Shown in pieces: positions 2,564 to 35,148 of a DNA stretch of 35,148 bases (the stretch's first letter is position 1; each line of letters begins with the position of its first letter). Both the position numbers and the translations under genes were made by a program. Source of the stretch: a virus; the IMG/VR virus record IMGVR_UViG_3300030389_001817, positions 1 through 35,148 of that record. One strand, written 5' to 3'. The notes under the pieces are model-generated. The model did not search any database, was not told the origin of the DNA, and saw only the letters and a program-made list of their open reading frames with translations.

Positions 2564-2774
2564 CTTCTTCTTCCCTTGGGTCTGATTCAATGATTTCATC
2601 AATCTTGGCTTGCAGTTCCCATATTTGACGGCGTGCCACTTGTTGAATTTGTTCCAATGCCGTTGGATTACTTCGAATCAATTCCTTTGACACTTCAAGC
2701 GCTAGGTCAATCTCTTTGATTTGCAATTCAAGTTCTTGGATGAGTTCAAGGTCTAAGTCATTGATGGTTGTCAT
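2556..2774 (-). CDS. Small acidic coiled-coil protein
   Basis: This predicted 72 aa protein is not recognised. It is highly charged and helical (LELIQELELQIKEIDLALEV, then QARRQIWELQAKIDEI-like heptads), with an acidic tail ESDPREEEDE. The ATG at 2774 is preceded by GAAGGAAACC. It overlaps both the SSB gene upstream and the small-terminase-like gene downstream, so it is translationally coupled to both. A structural or adaptor role in the replication/packaging cluster is possible but nothing in the sequence proves it. Confidence 0.6.
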   Translation of the reverse strand: MTTINDLDLELIQELELQIKEIDLALEVSKELIRSNPTALEQIQQVARRQIWELQAKIDEIIESDPREEEDE

Positions 2775-3081
2775 TGGTTTCCTTCTTTCCATCCAAGATC
2801 AAAACTTTATTCACTATTAAATCCCAATATTCTTTTTCTTCATATTTGTTGGATTGCATAGCACCTTCAATAAAAACCTTTGTTCCTTTTTGAACATTTC
2901 TTTCAATATACAATGCTGTATTGTTGAATGCTTTGCATCTGAACCACTGTGTGTGATCTTCACCTTTTCTTTTGCTAGAAACAGCAACAGAGAACGCCAC
3001 CAAGCTTGAACCCATAGATGTGTCTTTGCTTTCAGGATCTTTTCCAACATTGCCAATAATGTGAATTTTATTTAGACTCAT
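2758..3081 (-). CDS. ssb: Single-stranded DNA-binding protein
   Basis: The 107 aa protein is a single OB-fold of the bacterial SSB type: MSLNKIHIIGNVGKDPE at the N-terminus, LVAFSVAVSSKR, the TQWFRCKAFNNTA core with the conserved W/F pair, and KGTKVFIEGAMQ. The acidic C-terminal tail ending in DDDIPF, which in bacterial SSBs recruits partner proteins, is absent. The protein ends KKETNDNHQ, so partner recruitment probably differs. It would coat single-stranded DNA during replication and recombination, working with the RecT-like protein. The start at 3081 lies inside the end of the RHH gene and has AAGG just upstream. Confidence 0.9.
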   Translation of the reverse strand: MSLNKIHIIGNVGKDPESKDTSMGSSLVAFSVAVSSKRKGEDHTQWFRCKAFNNTALYIERNVQKGTKVFIEGAMQSNKYEEKEYWDLIVNKVLILDGKKETNDNHQ

Positions 3082-3232
3082 GTGCCTTGTCTTTCTTTTG
3101 TCTGTCTTTGATTCCTTGATCAAGCATTTCACGCATCACATATGAACGTGGTTTATTCTCACGTTTTGCAATTTCATCAAGTGCATCAGACATGACCAAG
3201 GGAACATTTAACATAATAGGTTTCATATACAT
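3068..3232 (-). CDS. Ribbon-helix-helix transcription regulator
   Basis: This 54 aa protein fits the ribbon-helix-helix (Arc/CopG) fold: a short N-terminal beta strand KPIMLNVPLV, helix SDALDEIAKRE, turn, then helix SYVMREMLDQGIKDR. Such proteins bind DNA as dimers through the strand, often at tandem direct repeats. The ATG at 3232 follows AAAGGATTAGGT; longer versions reach into AT-rich promoter DNA. It is the first gene of the leftward operon, and the promoter region just upstream holds tandem AAGTCAAG repeats 11 bp apart plus a perfect inverted repeat. Autoregulation of that operon and of the divergent gene at 3342 is inferred. Confidence 0.8.
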   Translation of the reverse strand: MYMKPIMLNVPLVMSDALDEIAKRENKPRSYVMREMLDQGIKDRQKKDKAHESK

Positions 3233-3787: not shown

Positions 3788-3828
3788 CGGTGTGGTGTTC
3801 TCCCAGCGTCCACACCGTTGTTTTCTTT
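3788..3828 (+). terminator. Rho-independent terminator
   Basis: CGGTGTGG (3788-3795) pairs perfectly with CCACACCG (3810-3817) around a 14-base loop and is followed by TTGTTTTCTTT. It ends the rightward transcript of the 3342 gene. On the minus strand the hairpin is not followed by a T run, so leftward transcription from the helicase-loader gene may read through towards 3232. Confidence 0.7.
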
Positions 3829-4819
3829 ATATCCACATTTCATCATTGGCACGTCTGTCTTCACCTGTCATTTTGAAAACAAAGCCTTTACACATTGAAC
3901 TGATGCGTGAAACTGACCGCATATCAAGAAACTGTGACTTCATTTGCTTTGGTGTCAGATTGGATGCAAAAAGGACTTGAACCCCGGCGGCATGAATCGC
4001 ATGAATCAACTCATTGGTTGTTTGTCTACTCCATTCATTCTGCCTGAAAAATCCAAGTTCATCAAATAGTACCACTTGAACACCATCAAGCCATGAATAC
4101 CGTGGATCAACTGTTTCACTGTTTCTGTCAAATGACTTCTTGATGTCCTCCAACAGTTGTTGATGTGACACATACCTGACTTTCTTTCCTGAGAAAATCA
4201 ATTCACGTGCAATTGCACAGAGCAAATGCGTTTTTCCATTGCCCGTGTTTCCATAGATGATGCCACCTTGTTGATTGCCTTGAACAAAGTTTAATGCCAA
4301 GTATTCAAGACCGGGTTCAAATTCATAGTTATCAACATGTTTGCCAATGGCATCTGCAGTCAATCCACTGTTCTTGAAGTCTAAAAGGTATTTGTTGGTC
4401 AATCCACAATACTTGCAAGGAACACCAAAGGTATATGAATGTTGAATAGGCAACCACATTCCATCATCATCAATGATCAGGTTGGATGGACGCTTTGATA
4501 CATCCTCAAACTCTTTACCATCTGTTTTCATCATCACAGGTTGGTATTCAACCAAGTCATCCAAAAGACGTGTTTCTTGTCTTGTGTGTATGCCTGAATG
4601 TGAAGCGGTGCAACCGTCATATTGACATGATTCAAGAAGATTGACGTTGATTTGTGGAACACCGTTTATGACTTCCTTAGTCAAGAGGTTGGATTGTTCG
4701 AGGTTTCTATGATGCACAATATTTGGTTCTTTGACATCTGTTTTAATTGCAGTTGCTTTTAAGGACTTTGACCATGCATCAAGATTGAAGTCTTTGAATG
4801 CGTCTTTGATTGATTTCAT
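3827..4819 (-). CDS. DnaC/IstB-like helicase loader ATPase
   Basis: This 330 aa protein has an AAA+ core at residues ~180-330: Walker A GNTGNGKT (190-197), Walker B VVLFDE (249-254), sensor SN (286-287) and a downstream RSVSR arginine cluster (301-305) typical of DnaC-type loaders. The N-terminal half contains possible zinc ligands, CQYDGC...H...H (65-78) and CKYC (135-138), which could pair. The ATG at 4819 sits 5 bases after AAGGAGAA; an ATG six codons earlier overlaps that ribosome site. It lies 27 bases downstream of the initiator, the same order as lambda O-P. It most likely loads the host replicative helicase at the iteron origin, since no phage helicase or polymerase is present. Confidence 0.85.
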   Translation of the reverse strand: MKSIKDAFKDFNLDAWSKSLKATAIKTDVKEPNIVHHRNLEQSNLLTKEVINGVPQINVNLLESCQYDGCTASHSGIHTRQETRLLDDLVEYQPVMMKTDGKEFEDVSKRPSNLIIDDDGMWLPIQHSYTFGVPCKYCGLTNKYLLDFKNSGLTADAIGKHVDNYEFEPGLEYLALNFVQGNQQGGIIYGNTGNGKTHLLCAIARELIFSGKKVRYVSHQQLLEDIKKSFDRNSETVDPRYSWLDGVQVVLFDELGFFRQNEWSRQTTNELIHAIHAAGVQVLFASNLTPKQMKSQFLDMRSVSRISSMCKGFVFKMTGEDRRANDEMWI

Positions 4820-4846
4820 GTTGTTCTCCTTTGACATGAATGTGTT

Positions 4847-5494
4847 TTAGTTGTTGGACCATATTGGTACACAGAGTTGTGGAAAAAGCAAACGTTGCCT
4901 TTCACTGTGTGGAAGATTTGGATGGCTTTGAATATATAGTTCTGTTCTTCTTCTAATCACAGGATCCTCTATGCTAGAAGGAAATAACCAAAATTCATCT
5001 TTCCCCTCAATGCTATTTTGATCCACTTCCAAGTTACCATGTGGTTCAGGTTCTTCCATATTGTTAGTAACTGTATTTATATTGTTACTTATTGTATGGG
5101 TATCAGTTTTGATACCATCAAGGGTATCAGATTTGATACTGTGGGGGTTCATGTTTAATACCGTGGGGGTATCAGTTTTGATACGGTTCAATTTTGATAC
5201 GGTATCAGATTTGATACTCACCTTTTCAAGTTTGATGGTTGTAAAAGCTGCTGTTGATTTGGTGCGTTCAATGTGCCTTGATGTTCGAGTGATCCAACCT
5301 TTCTTGACTAGGTTGGCAACAGTGCGTTTGATGGTTGGTCTTGTACTGTTTGTCAGATCAATCAATTGGTTGACACTAACTTGACCACTGAATGTTGACC
5401 AATCAACACGCATCAAGATTGCGAGCATTACCAGTTTCTCCATTGGCTTCAAGTCTGACATCATAATTGATTGTCTGAGTTCATATTCTTTCAT
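4847..5494 (-). CDS. Winged-helix replication initiator (O-like)
   Basis: The 215 aa protein begins with a winged-helix domain (residues ~10-75: LKPMEKLVMLAILMRVDW, then VSVNQLIDLTNSTRPTIKRT, then LVKKGWITRTSR), as in phage O-type and plasmid initiators. Residues ~93-132 contain four SIKSDT/IKTDT-type repeats that are the translation of DNA iterons lying inside the gene. The acidic middle (EEPEPHGNLEVDQN) is probably a linker, and the C-terminal part may contact the loader. The ATG at 5494 is 5 bases after AAAGGAGAAC. A longer reading starting at 5608 would cross the promoter. It initiates replication by binding the iterons and recruiting the DnaC-like protein encoded next. Confidence 0.8.
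   Translation of the reverse strand: MKEYELRQSIMMSDLKPMEKLVMLAILMRVDWSTFSGQVSVNQLIDLTNSTRPTIKRTVANLVKKGWITRTSRHIERTKSTAAFTTIKLEKVSIKSDTVSKLNRIKTDTPTVLNMNPHSIKSDTLDGIKTDTHTISNNINTVTNNMEEPEPHGNLEVDQNSIEGKDEFWLFPSSIEDPVIRRRTELYIQSHPNLPHSERQRLLFPQLCVPIWSNN
5059..5097. other. AT-rich tract next to the iterons (possible unwinding element)
   Basis: This stretch inside the initiator gene is almost entirely A and T (ATTGTTAGTAACTGTATTTA and onward) and directly abuts the iteron cluster at 5100. It encodes the Asn/Thr-rich SNNINTVTNN segment. An adjacent AT-rich tract is the usual place where iteron origins melt. The role is inferred from position and composition only. Confidence 0.45.
5100..5217. repeat. 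Iteron cluster, probable replication origin
   Basis: Four 16 bp copies of GTATCA-N4-TGATAC lie at 5100-5115, 5124-5139, 5169-5184 and 5202-5217, with centres GTTT or GATT. Degenerate copies occur at 5147-5161 and 5185-5200. Each exact copy is itself a 6+6 palindrome. Start-to-start spacings are about 24, 23, 22, 16 and 17 bases. They sit within the initiator gene, as the lambda origin sits within O, and encode its IKSDT/IKTDT repeats. The position in the initiator gene and the neighbouring AT-rich tract support an origin. Operator function is the main alternative. Confidence 0.8.
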
Positions 5495-5518
5495 GTGTTC
5501 TCCTTTCTGCATAGTTGT

Positions 5519-5608
5519 CTTATATAATGATTCAAAACTAAATTCAATAAAAACTAACAAAAAAGTTATTTTACTATTGACATAAATGTTAGTTTCTGTT
5601 TTTATCAA
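5519..5608. promoter_or_regulatory. Divergent promoter region with inverted-repeat operator
   Basis: The 137 bp between the initiator (start 5494) and the HTH gene (start 5632) holds two candidate promoters. Leftward is TTGAAT (5547-5542), 17 bp, TATAAG (5524-5519). Rightward is TTGACA (5577-5582), 17 bp, TTTTAT (5600-5605) preceded by an extended TG. A perfect 9 bp inverted repeat, AAACTAACA (5551-5559) and TGTTAGTTT (5587-5595), places one arm beside the leftward -35 and the other inside the rightward spacer. This is a likely operator for the adjacent HTH protein. Confidence 0.6.
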
Positions 5609-5631
5609 TTCATCAAATGAAAGGAGAACAC

Positions 5632-5835
5632 ATGAAAGACCAAATCATTAAAGACCTAAAATCCAAGTCAATGAACTTGAAAACATTGGCATCTGATATG
5701 GGTTGCAGCTATGAGCATCTTTTGTATGTCTTGAATGGACACCGTCCAATGTCATACAAGGTTGCTGTTGCCTTGCGTGATTCACTCAACAAACTAACCT
5801 CTAACACTTACCACTTGACTGACTTTGGATTTTAA
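5632..5835 (+). CDS. Small helix-turn-helix (Cro/repressor-like) protein
   Basis: This 67 aa protein has a lambda-repressor-like HTH: MNLKTLASDMGCSYEHLLYVLNG, in which LKTLASDMG is the first helix and CSYEHLLYVL the recognition helix, followed by SYKVAVALRDSL. It lacks a C-terminal dimerisation or cleavage domain, so it is Cro-sized rather than a CI-type repressor. The ATG at 5632 follows AAAGGAGAACAC. It is the first rightward gene after the divergent promoters and probably binds the inverted repeat there to balance initiator expression. Whether the phage forms lysogens cannot be decided from this gene alone. Confidence 0.75.
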   Translation: MKDQIIKDLKSKSMNLKTLASDMGCSYEHLLYVLNGHRPMSYKVAVALRDSLNKLTSNTYHLTDFGF

Positions 5836-6069: not shown

Positions 6070-7275
6070 ATGCTTACTGAACAACAAGACCAAATCATCA
6101 AGAACGCATCAAACAGTCAACGTGACTATGATGATAATGTAAAATGCTTTCTAACCTTTGGCCACCTCTTCAATTACAATGCACTTGCTTGCATGTCTCA
6201 AACATATTGCATCCATGGCAAGCCGGCATTGAATGCAGATGCCATGGTTGGCATTGTACGCAGCTTTGTGGATCCAACCACAGGCAAAAAGATTTGTGCA
6301 ATGATGAAGGCAGAAACACTGACACCAGAATATGATGATCAAGGCAACGTCAACCCGCACACCGTTGGAATCAGATATGTTGCAATGCGTACTGATGAAC
6401 TTGATTTTGCCAAAGAGTATGGAATGGACGCACCTGTGCATTCTTGGACTTTCACAATGCATGATTGTAGAATGCGTGGAAATGATAAAATCAAAGTATG
6501 GCGTGAAATGCCCTTGGTAATGTGTGGAAAACGTGCTGCAACAGCATTATGCCGTGTGGCCTTTCCTGATGTTGTTGGAACTGCCAACAGTCCTGATGAA
6601 CTTGCAGAACAGATGTTGAGTGATTCAGATGAAGTTGACCGCATCTTGTATGCATCCAATGGCGAGCGTATACCATATGACTTAAAAAAAAAGTCTAAAG
6701 TAAGTCAACCACCGGCAAGACAACCCGCACCACAACCCGCACCACCTCAAGAATCAAAATTTGCATTGCGTGATTTGTCAAATATTAACACGGTACTTCA
6801 AGAACTCAAAGATGAAGACATTGATGTTGATGATGCCTTGCTTGCCTTGGAGAATTATGCAGACGGGTTGTCACCAACCAAAATGGATGAATTTCATTTT
6901 AGACGTTTCTTTTACCCTATGATGTTTTCACCCTTGCGTGTCATCCTCAAAGATGGACGTTTATCAGGATTCAATAAAGAAGGCTTGAAAGATGTGGACA
7001 CTGATGCATTGGCAGCCATGTTTGATGCTTGGTATGGAACATGTTATGCAAAGAAACGTGACGGTGATCTTACAGGATATTGTGTGAATGTAATCAAGTG
7101 GACTCATTCACCATGGTTCAGTGAACTTGCACATCATACTCAAAAGTTATTGTCTAAGGATCTGATCACAGAGGAAGAACAAGAAGACATTCTTCACATC
7201 ATCACCAAAGATGAGAATCTATTCAATGAAGCCATGTATGATGACATCATGCAAACACTACCCTTGTTCGAGTAA
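6070..7275 (+). CDS. RecT-like single-strand annealing protein
   Basis: The 401 aa protein has a first domain (residues ~20-200) matching a phage RecT-like group: HGKPALNADAMVGIVR, then a FTMHDCRMRG segment, then MPLVMCGKRAATALCRVAFPDVVG ahead of SPDELAEQ. These proteins anneal complementary single strands during replication-linked recombination. A Pro/Gln/Ala linker (residues ~213-233) joins a C-terminal domain that is not recognised. The ATG follows AAAGGAGAACAAT. A nine-A run at about 6683 lies at the linker and is a possible slippage or sequencing-error site. The 3' end overlaps the convergent reductase gene by 18 bases, with no terminator visible between them. No partner exonuclease is seen. 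Confidence 0.65.
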   Translation: MLTEQQDQIIKNASNSQRDYDDNVKCFLTFGHLFNYNALACMSQTYCIHGKPALNADAMVGIVRSFVDPTTGKKICAMMKAETLTPEYDDQGNVNPHTVGIRYVAMRTDELDFAKEYGMDAPVHSWTFTMHDCRMRGNDKIKVWREMPLVMCGKRAATALCRVAFPDVVGTANSPDELAEQMLSDSDEVDRILYASNGERIPYDLKKKSKVSQPPARQPAPQPAPPQESKFALRDLSNINTVLQELKDEDIDVDDALLALENYADGLSPTKMDEFHFRRFFYPMMFSPLRVILKDGRLSGFNKEGLKDVDTDALAAMFDAWYGTCYAKKRDGDLTGYCVNVIKWTHSPWFSELAHHTQKLLSKDLITEEEQEDILHIITKDENLFNEAMYDDIMQTLPLFE

Positions 7276-9270
7276 AGGCACTTCACACTTCAATCCATCA
7301 CACGCACCTGTCAAGTGTGCATCATTTCCACCTGAAATTGATTGCAAGTCAATCACTGACCAATCAGTTTCATTCAACATCTTCCACTTTGCTGCACCAA
7401 GTGAATCATCTAAAATAGTTTGATAAGGTGCATTCTCATAAATGAAGTCACCCGCATCAGGCATCATGGCCACGCCTTTCACAGTGTGTCTGATCTTCCA
7501 CAACCAATCAGCAACAAAACGCCATTCGTGGTGTTTGATGGTGCAAGTGTTTGACACGTTGTGTGTTAATCCTTCAATGCGAGTGTTGACAGATCCGGGC
7601 AATACCCAATGTTTCTGAACAAGTTCCACTTGTTCGAGATGGTATTTGGCTTTGACTTCTTCACGCACCCATGCCTTTGAATCAGGTATCTCACAAGCAA
7701 ATTGAACAATGCCCGTGTCACCATCTTGATCAACAACCACATGTGGCAATTTCTCTTTGATCTCTTTCCATACTGGATTAATCTTGCTTAAACGTATGGT
7801 CCTGATCCACCGCTTTGAATGGAATGGATGAATGCCTGCACTTGTACCAAGTAAAGTGGATGTGTTGCCACTTGGCTTGATGCATGTGGTACGTGATGCA
7901 TAATTGATTCCAATCAGTTTGGACACTCGCAAGTTTTCTGCAACAACAGTCTTGGCACCTTCTTCAAGAATCTTTGGTGAGAATGACACACTGAAGTTTG
8001 AATACATGCCTGTCAGACTTACACCAATCAATGCTTCTTGCTCAATGATCTTCTTTGATACTAGTCCTAGGTATCCTGTGTTTGTATATCCGGCTTGCAA
8101 TGTTCCAATAAATGATGCAGCTTGACACGCTTCAATGAACTCTTCAAAAGTCCTGTTCTTTTGCATGTTGATCTCTGTGAGATTGCAAACACTCCATCCA
8201 CTTCTGAAAGTCCATCCTGTTTGTTCAAGTCTTTCCTTGTCTCTACTCATCACCAATGGAATCTTATCAACAGTTTCACCACTTGGAGACTGCACCCAAT
8301 ATGGCCATAAACCAATTTCACAACATGGGTTGGTTCCAAAGTCCGGAGCATTGGCAAAGAATACGCCGGGTTCACCCCAATTGGCATTGAGATCAACGGC
8401 ACGTTTGACATCTGATTTCTTTTCTTGACCATCTGTGACAATGGTAGAACTAATATTTGCATATGCTCTGTTAGGCCAACGTATATACCAGTCACCAACT
8501 TTGGCATTAAGCATCAATTCATCATCTTCATCAAACAAACAGATTGATGCAGACCTACGGACACCACCTGACAAAACTGCAGCTGACAAAGACATACACA
8601 TGTCAAAGACATCAACAGAACGCAAACGCCTTCCAAGTCTTGAAACCAAAATATGCCTGATTTCATTCAAACATGCTTCAAGTGGTTTGTGTCCTGGTGC
8701 AATGCCACCTGATGAAATTGGTGAACCTTTTGGCCTGATCAAGTGATAGTCAAAATGTATTTCATAATCAATTGAGTGAGCAAAGTAATCCGTGTGAAAG
8801 TAAGAATCCAACATTGATTGCAAGGCTTCACACCAACCTTCAATTGAATCCTGAACTACATGGACAAGCATTTTACGTCTTGCATGTTGTTCCACTCCAA
8901 TGATTCGAGGCAATTCTTTAATGTGTCTTTGCTTGACACTGAAACCCGTGCCACATCCACAAAGCAACAACCAAAACATTTCTGAAAAGAATCTTGGTCT
9001 GTCAATTGGTGAATATGTGCAATTGTATATTCTCATGTTGCGTTGGTGGATGGCCTTGCCACCAAACTGCATGGACCTCTGAGAAGGCACAACCCGTTTA
9101 TTCTTGACCAATTGAAACGCATCTTTGATTTCTGTTTCAAGTTGTGGATATTTATTAACGTGCATATCAATCACCCGTTCCACCGCATCAGTCCATGATT
9201 CACGTCCATCTTCTTTTTGTTTTGCGTACTGTGAAGCAAAGACCACTTCACCCATTAATTCATTCTGCAT
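7258..9270 (-). CDS. Class II (adenosylcobalamin-dependent) ribonucleotide reductase
   Basis: The 670 aa protein resembles monomeric class II ribonucleoside-triphosphate reductase, which makes deoxynucleotides with vitamin B12 coenzyme and no second subunit. Visible active-site features are C84 in RIYNCTYSP and the radical-site motif NPCCEIG (N314, C316, E318). C362 in VCNLTEIN is the expected partner of C84. A C-terminal CDGLKC (C657-C662) matches the redox-shuttle CX4C. The segment between NPC and CNLTEIN is ~45 residues, longer than in the Lactobacillus enzyme. ATG at 9270 follows GATGAGGATTT. It is the last gene of the long leftward run, after the lysis and fibre genes, rather than with replication genes. 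The host must supply or salvage cobalamin. Confidence 0.9.
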   Translation of the reverse strand: MQNELMGEVVFASQYAKQKEDGRESWTDAVERVIDMHVNKYPQLETEIKDAFQLVKNKRVVPSQRSMQFGGKAIHQRNMRIYNCTYSPIDRPRFFSEMFWLLLCGCGTGFSVKQRHIKELPRIIGVEQHARRKMLVHVVQDSIEGWCEALQSMLDSYFHTDYFAHSIDYEIHFDYHLIRPKGSPISSGGIAPGHKPLEACLNEIRHILVSRLGRRLRSVDVFDMCMSLSAAVLSGGVRRSASICLFDEDDELMLNAKVGDWYIRWPNRAYANISSTIVTDGQEKKSDVKRAVDLNANWGEPGVFFANAPDFGTNPCCEIGLWPYWVQSPSGETVDKIPLVMSRDKERLEQTGWTFRSGWSVCNLTEINMQKNRTFEEFIEACQAASFIGTLQAGYTNTGYLGLVSKKIIEQEALIGVSLTGMYSNFSVSFSPKILEEGAKTVVAENLRVSKLIGINYASRTTCIKPSGNTSTLLGTSAGIHPFHSKRWIRTIRLSKINPVWKEIKEKLPHVVVDQDGDTGIVQFACEIPDSKAWVREEVKAKYHLEQVELVQKHWVLPGSVNTRIEGLTHNVSNTCTIKHHEWRFVADWLWKIRHTVKGVAMMPDAGDFIYENAPYQTILDDSLGAAKWKMLNETDWSVIDLQSISGGNDAHLTGACDGLKCEVPLLEQG

Positions 9271-11413: not shown

Positions 11414-13765
11414 TTAGATGATGAACCAGTTGGTGCCATTTGTGATGATAGTAACCGCTTCATGTTCATTTGAAATCACATATGTTGAAGTGCCATCAAT
11501 TGTCTCAGTTGAGTTTGGATCAATGGTCAGAGTGTTTGCAGATGCCATGTTTTTAATATGGTATTTATAACCACTTCCACATGATGAAGCTGCCGGCAAA
11601 TTTACGCTTATGTCTGCAGATGGTGTCAAAATGTAAATCTCTTCATTACCCGCATGTGTTGAAATGGTATATGTGGTTGATGGTGAAGCAGATGTAACAT
11701 TTGGAGGATCAATTGCAATGTTTGTCAATTGCGAGCCATCAACAGCAGGCAAACCCGTTGCATCCAACAAGACAACCTCACCATTGGAAGTTCCTGTGTT
11801 TTTAGTTGCAGCCGTTCCAAGACCAAGACTTGTTCGAGCCGTGGCAAGTGTTTCAGTTACAAAGTTGGAGCCATCACCAACAATGAATGCACCATCTGCA
11901 GGTGTTAATCCAGCAACGTCATCAAGTTGGGCATCATGTGCTTGAACGTCTGAACCAATTGCCACACCAAGTGAAGTGCGTGCAGTTGCACCACTTTCAG
12001 TTACAAAGTTGCTACCATTGCCAACAATAATGTGTGAATCTGTTGGAGTCAATCCGGAAATATCATCAAGTTGGGCGTCATGTGCTTGAACGTCTGAACC
12101 AATTGCAACACCAAGTGAAGTTCGAGCCGTGGCACCTGATTCTGTGATGAAGTTTGAACCGTTTCCAATTATGATGTTTCCATCTGTGGGTGTCAATCCG
12201 GCAACGTCATCAAGTTGTGCGTCATGTGCTTGAACATCAGAACCAATTGCAACACCAAGATTGGTGCGGGCAGTTCCTGCATTGGCTAAGTCACTCAAGT
12301 TATTGGTGGATAGCATGTCACCACCGCCGGGCAGATTAGTCAACAATGATCCATCCACCGCCGGCAATTTACCGGCAGCAGTCAGTTGAACAAGTTGGTT
12401 GGCACTGTTGGCACCCGCATCAAAGGTGGCAGCACTTCCACATCCAAGACTTGTTCTTGCAGTGAGTCCGGATTCTAAGACAAAGTTGGAACCATCACCA
12501 ACAATAAAATTGCTATCTGTTGGAGTCAATCCGGCAATATCTGCAAGTTGTGCATCATATGCTTGAACATCAGTGCCAATTGTCAGACCAAGACTTGTTC
12601 GAGCCGTGGCACCTGTTTCAGTTACAAAGTTGGAACCATCACCAACAATAATATGTGAATCTGTTGGAGTCAACCCTGCAATATCTGCAAGTTGTGCATC
12701 ATATGCTTGAACATCAGTGCCAATTGTCAGACCAAGACTTGTTCGAGCCGTGGCACCTGATTCTGCAACAAAGTTGGAGCCATCACCAACAATAATGTTA
12801 CCATCTGTAACTGCCAATCCGGCAATATCATCAAGTTTGGCGTTGTGTGCTTGAACGTCTGAACCAATTGCAACACCAAGATTGGTGCGGGCAGTTCCTG
12901 CATTGGCTAAGTCACTCAAGTTATTGGTGGATAGCATGTCACCACCGCCGGGCAGATTGGTCAACAAAGATCCATCAACCGCCGGCAATTTACCGGCAGC
13001 AGTCAATTGAACAAGTTGATTAGCAGTATTTGAACCCGCATCAAAGGTGGCAGCACTTCCACATCCAAGACTTGTTCGAGCCGTGGCAAGTGTTTCAGTT
13101 ACAAAGTTGCTACCATCACCAACAATAAATGCACCATCTGCAGGTGTTAATCCTGCAACGTCATCAAGTTGGGCGTCATGTGCTTGAACATCTGAACCAA
13201 TGGAAAGACCAAGTGAAGTGCGTGCAGTTGCACCACTTTCAGTGATGAAGTTTGAACCGTTTCCAATTATTATGTTTCCATCTGTTGGAGTCAATCCGGC
13301 AATGTCTGTCAATTGTGCATCAAATGCTTGAACATCTGAACCAATGGAAAGACCAAGACTTGTTCGAGCCGTGGCACCACTTTCACCAATCCATTCAGAA
13401 CCATCACCAACCAAGAAAGTTGAATCACTTGGTGTCAATGAAGCATTCACATCATTGATGTCTTGAAGGTCAAGCACCACCGGGCCTGTTTGACCGTTCA
13501 CACTTGCCACTGCATCAGTGTTGTCAATCACATCAAACATGGCACTTGTGATTGGTGAAGATGCATCTTGATTGAATACAATGTGATCACCAACATTCAA
13601 TGCAACACTTGCCAAGGTTCCTGCAACAGAAACAATATAGAAGTCACCCTTGGTGCTTGACGTTAAATCAGGTGAATTTGTAGTTGCATTATATGAACCT
13701 TTATATACAAGGCCACCCGTGACACTGCCTGCACTTGCAGGATTTGGCTTTATTTCAATACTCAT
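11414..13765 (-). CDS. Long repetitive tail fibre protein
   Basis: The 783 aa protein opens with a phage fibre/collar N-terminus (YKGSYNATTNSPDLTSSTKG, then FYIVSVAGT, VGDHIVFNQ, VASVNGQTGPVVL). Residues ~100-640 are tandem units of 48 aa with consensus ATARTSLGLSIGSDVQAHDA, then QLDDIAGLTPTDGNIIVGDG, then SNFVTESG. They are interrupted by two copies of a GKLPAVDGSLLTNLPGGG, MLSTNNLSDLANAG block. Such repeats form extended trimeric shafts. The C-terminus (VNLPAASSCGSGYKYHIKNM, ETIDGT, TNGTNWFII) is a common fibre cap. The likely function is host-surface binding or tail extension. ATG follows GAGGTGACAT. Repeat number may vary between isolates through recombination. Confidence 0.85.
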   Translation of the reverse strand: MSIEIKPNPASAGSVTGGLVYKGSYNATTNSPDLTSSTKGDFYIVSVAGTLASVALNVGDHIVFNQDASSPITSAMFDVIDNTDAVASVNGQTGPVVLDLQDINDVNASLTPSDSTFLVGDGSEWIGESGATARTSLGLSIGSDVQAFDAQLTDIAGLTPTDGNIIIGNGSNFITESGATARTSLGLSIGSDVQAHDAQLDDVAGLTPADGAFIVGDGSNFVTETLATARTSLGCGSAATFDAGSNTANQLVQLTAAGKLPAVDGSLLTNLPGGGDMLSTNNLSDLANAGTARTNLGVAIGSDVQAHNAKLDDIAGLAVTDGNIIVGDGSNFVAESGATARTSLGLTIGTDVQAYDAQLADIAGLTPTDSHIIVGDGSNFVTETGATARTSLGLTIGTDVQAYDAQLADIAGLTPTDSNFIVGDGSNFVLESGLTARTSLGCGSAATFDAGANSANQLVQLTAAGKLPAVDGSLLTNLPGGGDMLSTNNLSDLANAGTARTNLGVAIGSDVQAHDAQLDDVAGLTPTDGNIIIGNGSNFITESGATARTSLGVAIGSDVQAHDAQLDDISGLTPTDSHIIVGNGSNFVTESGATARTSLGVAIGSDVQAHDAQLDDVAGLTPADGAFIVGDGSNFVTETLATARTSLGLGTAATKNTGTSNGEVVLLDATGLPAVDGSQLTNIAIDPPNVTSASPSTTYTISTHAGNEEIYILTPSADISVNLPAASSCGSGYKYHIKNMASANTLTIDPNSTETIDGTSTYVISNEHEAVTIITNGTNWFII
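11780..13430 (-). repeat. 144 bp (48 aa) tandem repeats within the fibre gene
   Basis: About ten copies of a 144 bp unit recur, recognisable by repeated GTGCTTGAAC(A/G)TC and ACAAAGTTGGAACCATCACC-like segments. A larger near-identical duplication pairs about 12230-12455 with 12851-13076, offset by exactly 621 bp (207 codons). High nucleotide identity points to recent internal duplication and makes this region prone to copy-number change and short-read misassembly. Confidence 0.8.
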
Positions 13766-34730: not shown

Positions 34731-35148
34731 GTTTTAATATCTTTCTAATCTCAGAATAATTGTTGAAGACTGTTGACCGGCTTTTCAAGTTCATGTGTTG
34801 CATGATCTCATCATAAGACATGCCTTGAATATATTTGAGTTCAAAGTAAATTGGATAAGTTGGTTTATATGTCTTTAAGACTTGCATTAATTGTTGGCCA
34901 TACAATTCAAAATCTGAATCATCTGCACGGTAATTGGATTCAATCCATGTTGGTACTTGTGTGCAGATGGCTTTGGCCTTTAGTCCTCTTTTACTTTTCA
35001 ATATTGTGAACTTGATCATGCGTCTTATTAAAAGATCAGTTTGTTGAATACTTAAAAATTCAAAATCATCTTTTCTTGACCAAAGATACACCAACGCATC
35101 ATGAATATAATCAGGATACTCTTGACCATGTGTGTACTTCCTTGCAAC
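34711..35148 (-). CDS. Sigma-factor-like protein (start lies beyond the right edge)
   Basis: Joined across the circle to ATG at 123, this gene encodes ~160 aa. The C-terminal segment YPIYFELKYIQGMSYDEIMQ, then HMNLKSRSTVFNNYSEIRKI, resembles sigma region 4 (helix-turn-helix with SYDEI and a recognition helix). The first half looks like region 2. The TTG at 35094 inside it is not the start, because the frame stays open upstream to position 123. It overlaps the large terminase by 20 bases. Possible roles are late-gene sigma factor or a second small-terminase-type protein, given its place directly before the large subunit. Confidence 0.65.
   Translation of the reverse strand, partial: VARKYTHGQEYPDYIHDALVYLWSRKDDFEFLSIQQTDLLIRRMIKFTILKSKRGLKAKAICTQVPTWIESNYRADDSDFELYGQQLMQVLKTYKPTYPIYFELKYIQGMSYDEIMQHMNLKSRSTVFNNYSEIRKILKHELAVE
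35072..35148. repeat. Terminal direct repeat, right copy
   Basis: This is identical over 77 bases to positions 2-78. Just before the repeat the right copy reads cttttc where the left copy reads ctttc, a one-base homopolymer difference exactly at the contig edge. The right copy keeps the sigma-like reading frame open; the shorter left version would shift it. Confidence 0.9.

Follow-up and report, generated by a model that had tools for sequence, protein, structure and literature searches.

Where does replication begin in an uncultured tailed phage? The question is raised by the IMG/VR record IMGVR_UViG_3300030389_001817, whose positions 1 to 35,148 make up the window analysed here (35,148 nucleotides). 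Within a minus-strand gene (4847..5494) that encodes an O-like replication initiator, the palindrome GTATCA-N4-TGATAC recurs beside an AT-rich tract. Judged by comparative analysis, this array is very probably a replication origin of the lambda type, situated within the phage's own initiator gene. Such an origin is the best explanation because the order of parts equals that of lambda: winged helix, iterons, AT-rich tract, C-terminal part, and loader gene. The anatomy of the array, its conservation as DNA, the coupled changes in its arms, and an association between arm base 3 and the recognition helix were all computed directly.

In lambda, gene O contains the origin. O dimers bind the inverted repeats there, and this binding opens a neighbouring AT-rich region before helicase loading (PMC5043065). 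The lambda iterons are 19-bp inverted repeats (PMC5043065, PMC7466680). In the Stx phages, silent changes in the iterons abolished plasmid establishment (PMC7466680). Lambda-type origins are textbook knowledge for a few enteric phages, and the layout is now supported in an uncultured tailed phage and, through a palindrome class that they have in common, in dozens of diverged initiators.

Anatomy of the array and its gene

The initiator gene starts with an ATG at 5494 and encodes 215 residues. In gene order, iteron 1 (5202-5217) is exact; iteron 2 (5185-5200) is degenerate, with 2 mismatches and one arm intact, and is degenerate in relatives too; iteron 3 (5169-5184) is exact; iteron 4 (5146-5161) is decayed, with 3 mismatches; and iterons 5 (5124-5139) and 6 (5100-5115) are exact. 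Each intact iteron is a 6+6 palindrome of 16 bp, and the 35,148-base record holds no further exact copy beyond these four. The first-pass annotation, made from the letters alone, had described four exact and two degenerate 16 bp repeats within an O-like gene next to an AT-rich tract, and this array is real. Translation also confirms that the protein carries the repeats as IKSDT/IKTDT; the four exact copies read SIKSDT, RIKTDT, SIKSDT, and GIKTDT.

The AT-rich tract (5052-5099) borders the iterons on their 3' (downstream) side in the direction of the gene. It is 75% A+T, which exceeds the A+T content of 98% of the 48-mers in the window, and it contains a 21-bp imperfect tandem repeat (5058-5097). 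By analogy with lambda (PMC5043065), it is the likely unwinding region.

The protein itself resembles phage initiators at the profile level. It matches PHROG replication initiation families, several of them O-like (270, 678, 428, and 391), the best at 1.4e-10 and the others more weakly; the O-like families 678, 391, and 345 are matched at 3.2e-9, 1.1e-7, and 2.2e-5, respectively. An AlphaFold2 model predicts an N-terminal winged-helix DNA-binding domain (residues 1-90, 5225..5494, minus strand) with a pLDDT of mostly 80-93. By DSSP on this model, the recognition helix spans residues 52-65 (5300..5341, minus strand) and includes Pro53, Lys56, and the conserved Arg57, numbered here -4, -1, and 0. 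Residues 95-171 (4982..5212, minus strand), with a pLDDT under 50, form a predicted disordered linker, and the first part of the linker is encoded by the iterons and the AT-rich DNA. A C-terminal helical segment follows (residues 178-203, 4886..4963, minus strand; model helices 178-190 and 196-203), which is possibly the part that binds the loader. In a Foldseek search of the PDB, MarR-type DNA-binding folds came first, all with E-values above 0.001, and in BFVD, a library of viral structures, O proteins and phage helix-turn-helix proteins match the model. A comparison of the sequence with the PDB gave no meaningful match, tblastn of the initiator against named phages gave nothing at E 0.01, and blastn with the array as query returned weak matches only among phages and plasmids.

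The next gene after the initiator gene (3827..4837, minus strand) encodes a DnaC-like AAA+ helicase loader, which matches PHROG 50 at 2.3e-38 and contains Bac_DnaA and IstB domains. It is the functional counterpart of lambda P, from another loader family. A single-strand DNA-binding protein gene (2758..3093, minus strand; Pfam SSB, 4.4e-22) belongs to the same replication module. A terminase small-subunit gene, together with long frames elsewhere that by reading are tail-like and head-like, marks the window as a tailed phage. Thus, the earlier proposal of an iteron-type origin in a lambda-O-like initiator gene is upheld by PHROG matches of 1e-10 to 1e-7, a predicted winged helix and disordered linker, the AT-rich tract, and the DnaC-like loader.

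Conservation of the DNA beyond the peptide

An array inside a gene could simply reflect the peptide that it encodes. Residues 91-145 were recoded with the peptide fixed and synonymous codons drawn at the window's own usage. In 200,000 trials, 3 palindromes arose 13 times and 4 palindromes never. The palindrome array is therefore neither chance nor a requirement of the peptide alone.

Homologues point the same way. In the close relatives L005 and L006, all four palindromes are retained and the spacers differ, and in homologues fetched by protein, the arms are constant and the 4-bp spacer is variable. Four relatives fetched by protein similarity (L087-L089 and L092) have a fifth intact palindrome at the position of the decayed iteron 4 of the window. 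This copy lies in the other codon phase (phase 0) and reads VSNLIP or VSELIP in place of IKxDT. The first-pass annotation had named homologous genes that keep the peptide repeat and lose the palindrome as a result that would refute it; the opposite was found, the palindrome being kept while both frame and peptide change. In a set of 51 initiator genes, phase 1 accounts for 111 copies of the palindrome and phase 0 for 48, and 31 of the genes combine the two. Phase 2, in which the palindrome's TGA would be read as a stop codon, is not used at all. The iterons can be accommodated within the gene because they fall in the part that encodes the disordered linker, which is tolerant of both stop-free phases.

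The two arms also change together. Every intact copy in L091, and the single intact copy in L094, is GTGTCA-N4-TGACAC, with both arms altered. In phase 1, replacing GAT by GAC in the second arm leaves the protein unchanged; therefore, protein function offers no explanation for this change. Of 159 copies, 156 have complementary bases at positions 3 and 14, a figure that is partly a selection effect of the search. Across homologues, it is the DNA rather than the peptide that is conserved.

A wider class of palindromic iterons

When viral contigs were searched for two neighbouring palindromes, the arms GTATCA, GTGTCA, GTTTCA, and GTCTCA were found in 26, 73, 9, and 12 viral stretches, respectively, and two control palindromes of equal composition with their arms reversed were found in none. 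By reading, 14 of the 26 GTATCA stretches and about 54 of the 73 GTGTCA stretches lie in winged-helix initiator genes. Among 52 representative array-bearing frames, 30 match the O-like PHROG 678, and 10 match Phage_rep_O at E up to 0.01. Identity between initiators of the class falls to about 20%. A scan of genome contigs added initiator genes of the class in contigs titled Ruminococcus, Bdellovibrionales, Nitrospirae, and Deltaproteobacteria (L040, L061, L066, and L081). By these sequence comparisons, GTnTCA-N4-TGAnAC is an iteron class common to dozens of diverged phage initiators. It is not universal: initiators fetched regardless of palindrome have other arms or no detectable array.

No earlier description of a GTATCA-N4-TGATAC iteron was found in the open-access literature, most subscription papers being outside the search. 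What is newer here is the common palindrome class, its occurrence in either of the two available codon phases, and the helix rule proposed below.

The same palindrome is also found outside initiator genes. Matches in collagen-like tail proteins (L022, L110, and L149) were discarded since these are not initiators, as were archaeal, Sulfuricurvum, and Prevotellaceae repeats and further hits that had no open frame across the pair. Archaeal contigs (L033, L038, L046, L047, L049, L054, L067, L068, L073, L080, and L083) contain GTATCA-N4-TGATAC pairs 19-20 bp apart with G/C-rich spacers, and in three of them (L033, L068, and L073), the pair coincides with the start of an open frame similar to an AAA-type ATPase. 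These pairs look like a conserved archaeal regulatory site. Many Sulfuricurvum genomes (L035, L039, L048, L055, L059, L072, L074, L082, and L084) have GTATCA palindrome pairs 33-34 bp apart, mostly without a long open frame across them, and six contigs of a single Prevotellaceae assembly (L041, L045, L053, L057, L063, and L070) carry GTATCA arrays at 22- or 44-bp spacing.

Recognition helix and arm base 3

Since one gene holds both the site and its putative reader, a palindrome test that is independent of frame can locate the site, which can then be compared with the recognition helix. The helices were aligned by hand from motifs, anchored on the conserved arginine (Arg57 in the window). In this alignment, arm base 3 shows an association with residues -4 and -1. 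At -4, initiators with A at base 3 (A-type) have mostly Pro, Val, Leu, Ile, Asn, or Gln; G-type initiators have exclusively Arg, Ser, Lys, or Ala. At -1, all C-type initiators have Phe or Tyr.

The association was assessed by mutual information, permutation-corrected over 13 helix positions, with 44, 35, or 32 lineages depending on dereplication. For position -4, the corrected p is <0.0002, 0.004, and 0.04 at these three levels; for position -1, it is 0.0008, 0.06, and 0.13. The A and G sets had suggested the helix rule before the C and T sets were collected; the permutation pooled all four, so that the test is not out-of-sample. The base-3 label requires 16 changes on the tree. That arm base 3 tracks helix positions -4 and -1 points to the encoded protein as the binder. 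Whether GTnTCA-N4-TGAnAC is a broad class in diverged winged-helix initiators of several bacterial phyla, with base 3 read by -4 and -1, such that origin and specificity are predictable for uncultured phages, is a proposition that we consider evenly balanced. If so, origins, and possibly replication compatibility between phages, could be predicted from metagenomes.

In the initiator gene L156, two sites are matched (GTGTCA/TGACAC) and two are mixed (GTGTCA/TGATAC). Its helix carries Ala at -4 together with Lys at -1, and its specificity may lie between the A and G types. In L007, L024, and L029, GTATCA palindromes are close to where a small winged-helix gene with the helix ITVKR begins. In L007 and L029, the A-type palindrome is upstream of this gene and not inside it, the helix agrees with the A-type prediction, and the gene's identity comes from weak domain matches only. 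These three are possibly an intergenic version of the GTATCA origin class.

Comparison with known origins

As in lambda O/P, the window has inverted-repeat iterons in the initiator gene between the parts encoding the DNA-binding and C-terminal regions, followed by an AT-rich tract and then a loader gene. The first-pass annotation had set palindromic iterons apart from those of lambda; this was wrong, since in lambda, too, the iterons are inverted repeats to which O dimers bind (PMC5043065, PMC7466680). The real differences are that lambda has TCCCTC arms (TCCCTC-N5-GAGGGA), a 5-bp spacer, and the P loader, whereas the window has GTATCA, a 4-bp spacer, and a DnaC-like loader. Similarity between lambda O and the window initiator is at the profile level only.

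Gene 18 of P22 and O of HK544 each contain four in-gene palindromes at the equivalent place (TTTACC-N5-GGTAAA and TTAGCT-N5-AGCTAA, respectively), and in the P22 record a lambda-like origin is annotated at that place. They differ from the window in their arms, in their 5-bp spacer, and in having a DnaB-type helicase gene where the window has a loader. Morganella phage IME1369_01 has an O gene with in-gene palindromes and a DnaC gene directly after it, but its arms are GTCTCT-N5-AGAGAC, and its O protein was fetched with the relative L081 rather than with the window protein. The O origins of the Stx phages P27 and 933W share in-gene inverted-repeat iterons and a dimeric O (PMC7466680); unlike the window, they have lambda-type arm sequence and six iterons of unequal binding strength. 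Iteron plasmids of the RepA/RepE type also have initiator-binding repeats adjoining an AT-rich region. However, their iterons are non-palindromic direct repeats bound by monomers, whereas those of the window are palindromic and lie within the gene.

Alternative explanations

The nearest solved folds are MarR-type repressors, for which dimeric binding to palindromes is normal, and so the palindromes might be operators at which a MarR-like winged-helix protein regulates its own or the loader gene, with the origin elsewhere. This is improbable. The sites are 277 to 395 bp inside the coding region rather than at an evident promoter, and a scan for promoters of the sigma-70 type found nothing at the sites and 2 promoter-like sites nearby versus 7 expected in shuffles. 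Moreover, the PHROG matches are to replication initiators, and the loader gene, the AT-rich tract, and the equal in-gene layout in lambda and P22 fit an origin. The protein might also act at the palindromes in both capacities, as regulator and as initiator. Given the ParB-like protein encoded at 144-1031, the array might instead serve another protein, for example as a partition site, or a host factor. This is more doubtful still: arm base 3 varies with the initiator's own recognition helix, and the site is found within the initiator genes of dozens of diverged phages. The explanation with the least in its favour is that IKxDT has a role in the protein and the palindrome arises from codon use as a mere by-product. 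Consistent with this, the window's four exact copies share one codon phase and read IK(S/T)DT. Nevertheless, the palindrome is lost on synonymous recoding, the linker is predicted to be disordered, and at homologous positions of L087-L089 and L092 the palindrome lies in the other phase and is translated as VSxLI; the recoding and the phase-0 copies led to the rejection of the by-product explanation.

Several results weigh against a lambda-type origin or its generality. The initiator scores 19.5 bits with Pfam PF04492 (Phage_rep_O), under the curated cut-off of 28.7. GC skew around 5.1 kb, suggested as a check by the first-pass annotation, gives no extreme at the array; the cumulative skew has its maximum at the start of the window and its minimum at 34,752. 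Among initiator-like genes of two phyla, sampled without bias by protein profile, most are without clear palindromic iterons under the detector used, and with the three seed loci excluded, the few genes above the background of other frames have other arms. The association between helix and arm is not free of phylogenetic dependence: only four independent pairs are well supported, three of them in the predicted direction and none in the opposite one, which is too few for significance.

A model for initiation

From these comparisons we infer binding, dimerisation, melting, loading, and origin function, as follows. The N-terminal winged helix of the 215-aa protein would bind the 16-bp palindromes; it would most likely act as a dimer, each arm being contacted by one recognition helix. 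Dimeric binding at each iteron had been suggested in the first-pass annotation. With several iterons occupied, the resulting nucleoprotein complex would melt the 48-bp AT-rich tract beside them. The C-terminal segment, acting through the neighbouring DnaC-like loader, would recruit the host replicative helicase.

Other features of the window

The ParB-like gene lies at an end of the record. The intergenic region 5495-5616, which separates the initiator gene from a divergent small gene (5617-5835), contains an inverted repeat, AACTAACA/TGTTAGTT (5546-5559 and 5587-5600), which is possibly an operator. The small gene has a weak match to a helix-turn-helix antitoxin family. A ribonucleotide reductase gene with a B12-dependent-type insertion domain is present at 7258-9270. 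Finally, the 783-aa protein encoded at 11414-13765, with 144-bp tandem DNA repeats (TARTSLG...DVQAHDAQLDDIAGLTP units), is probably a tail fibre.
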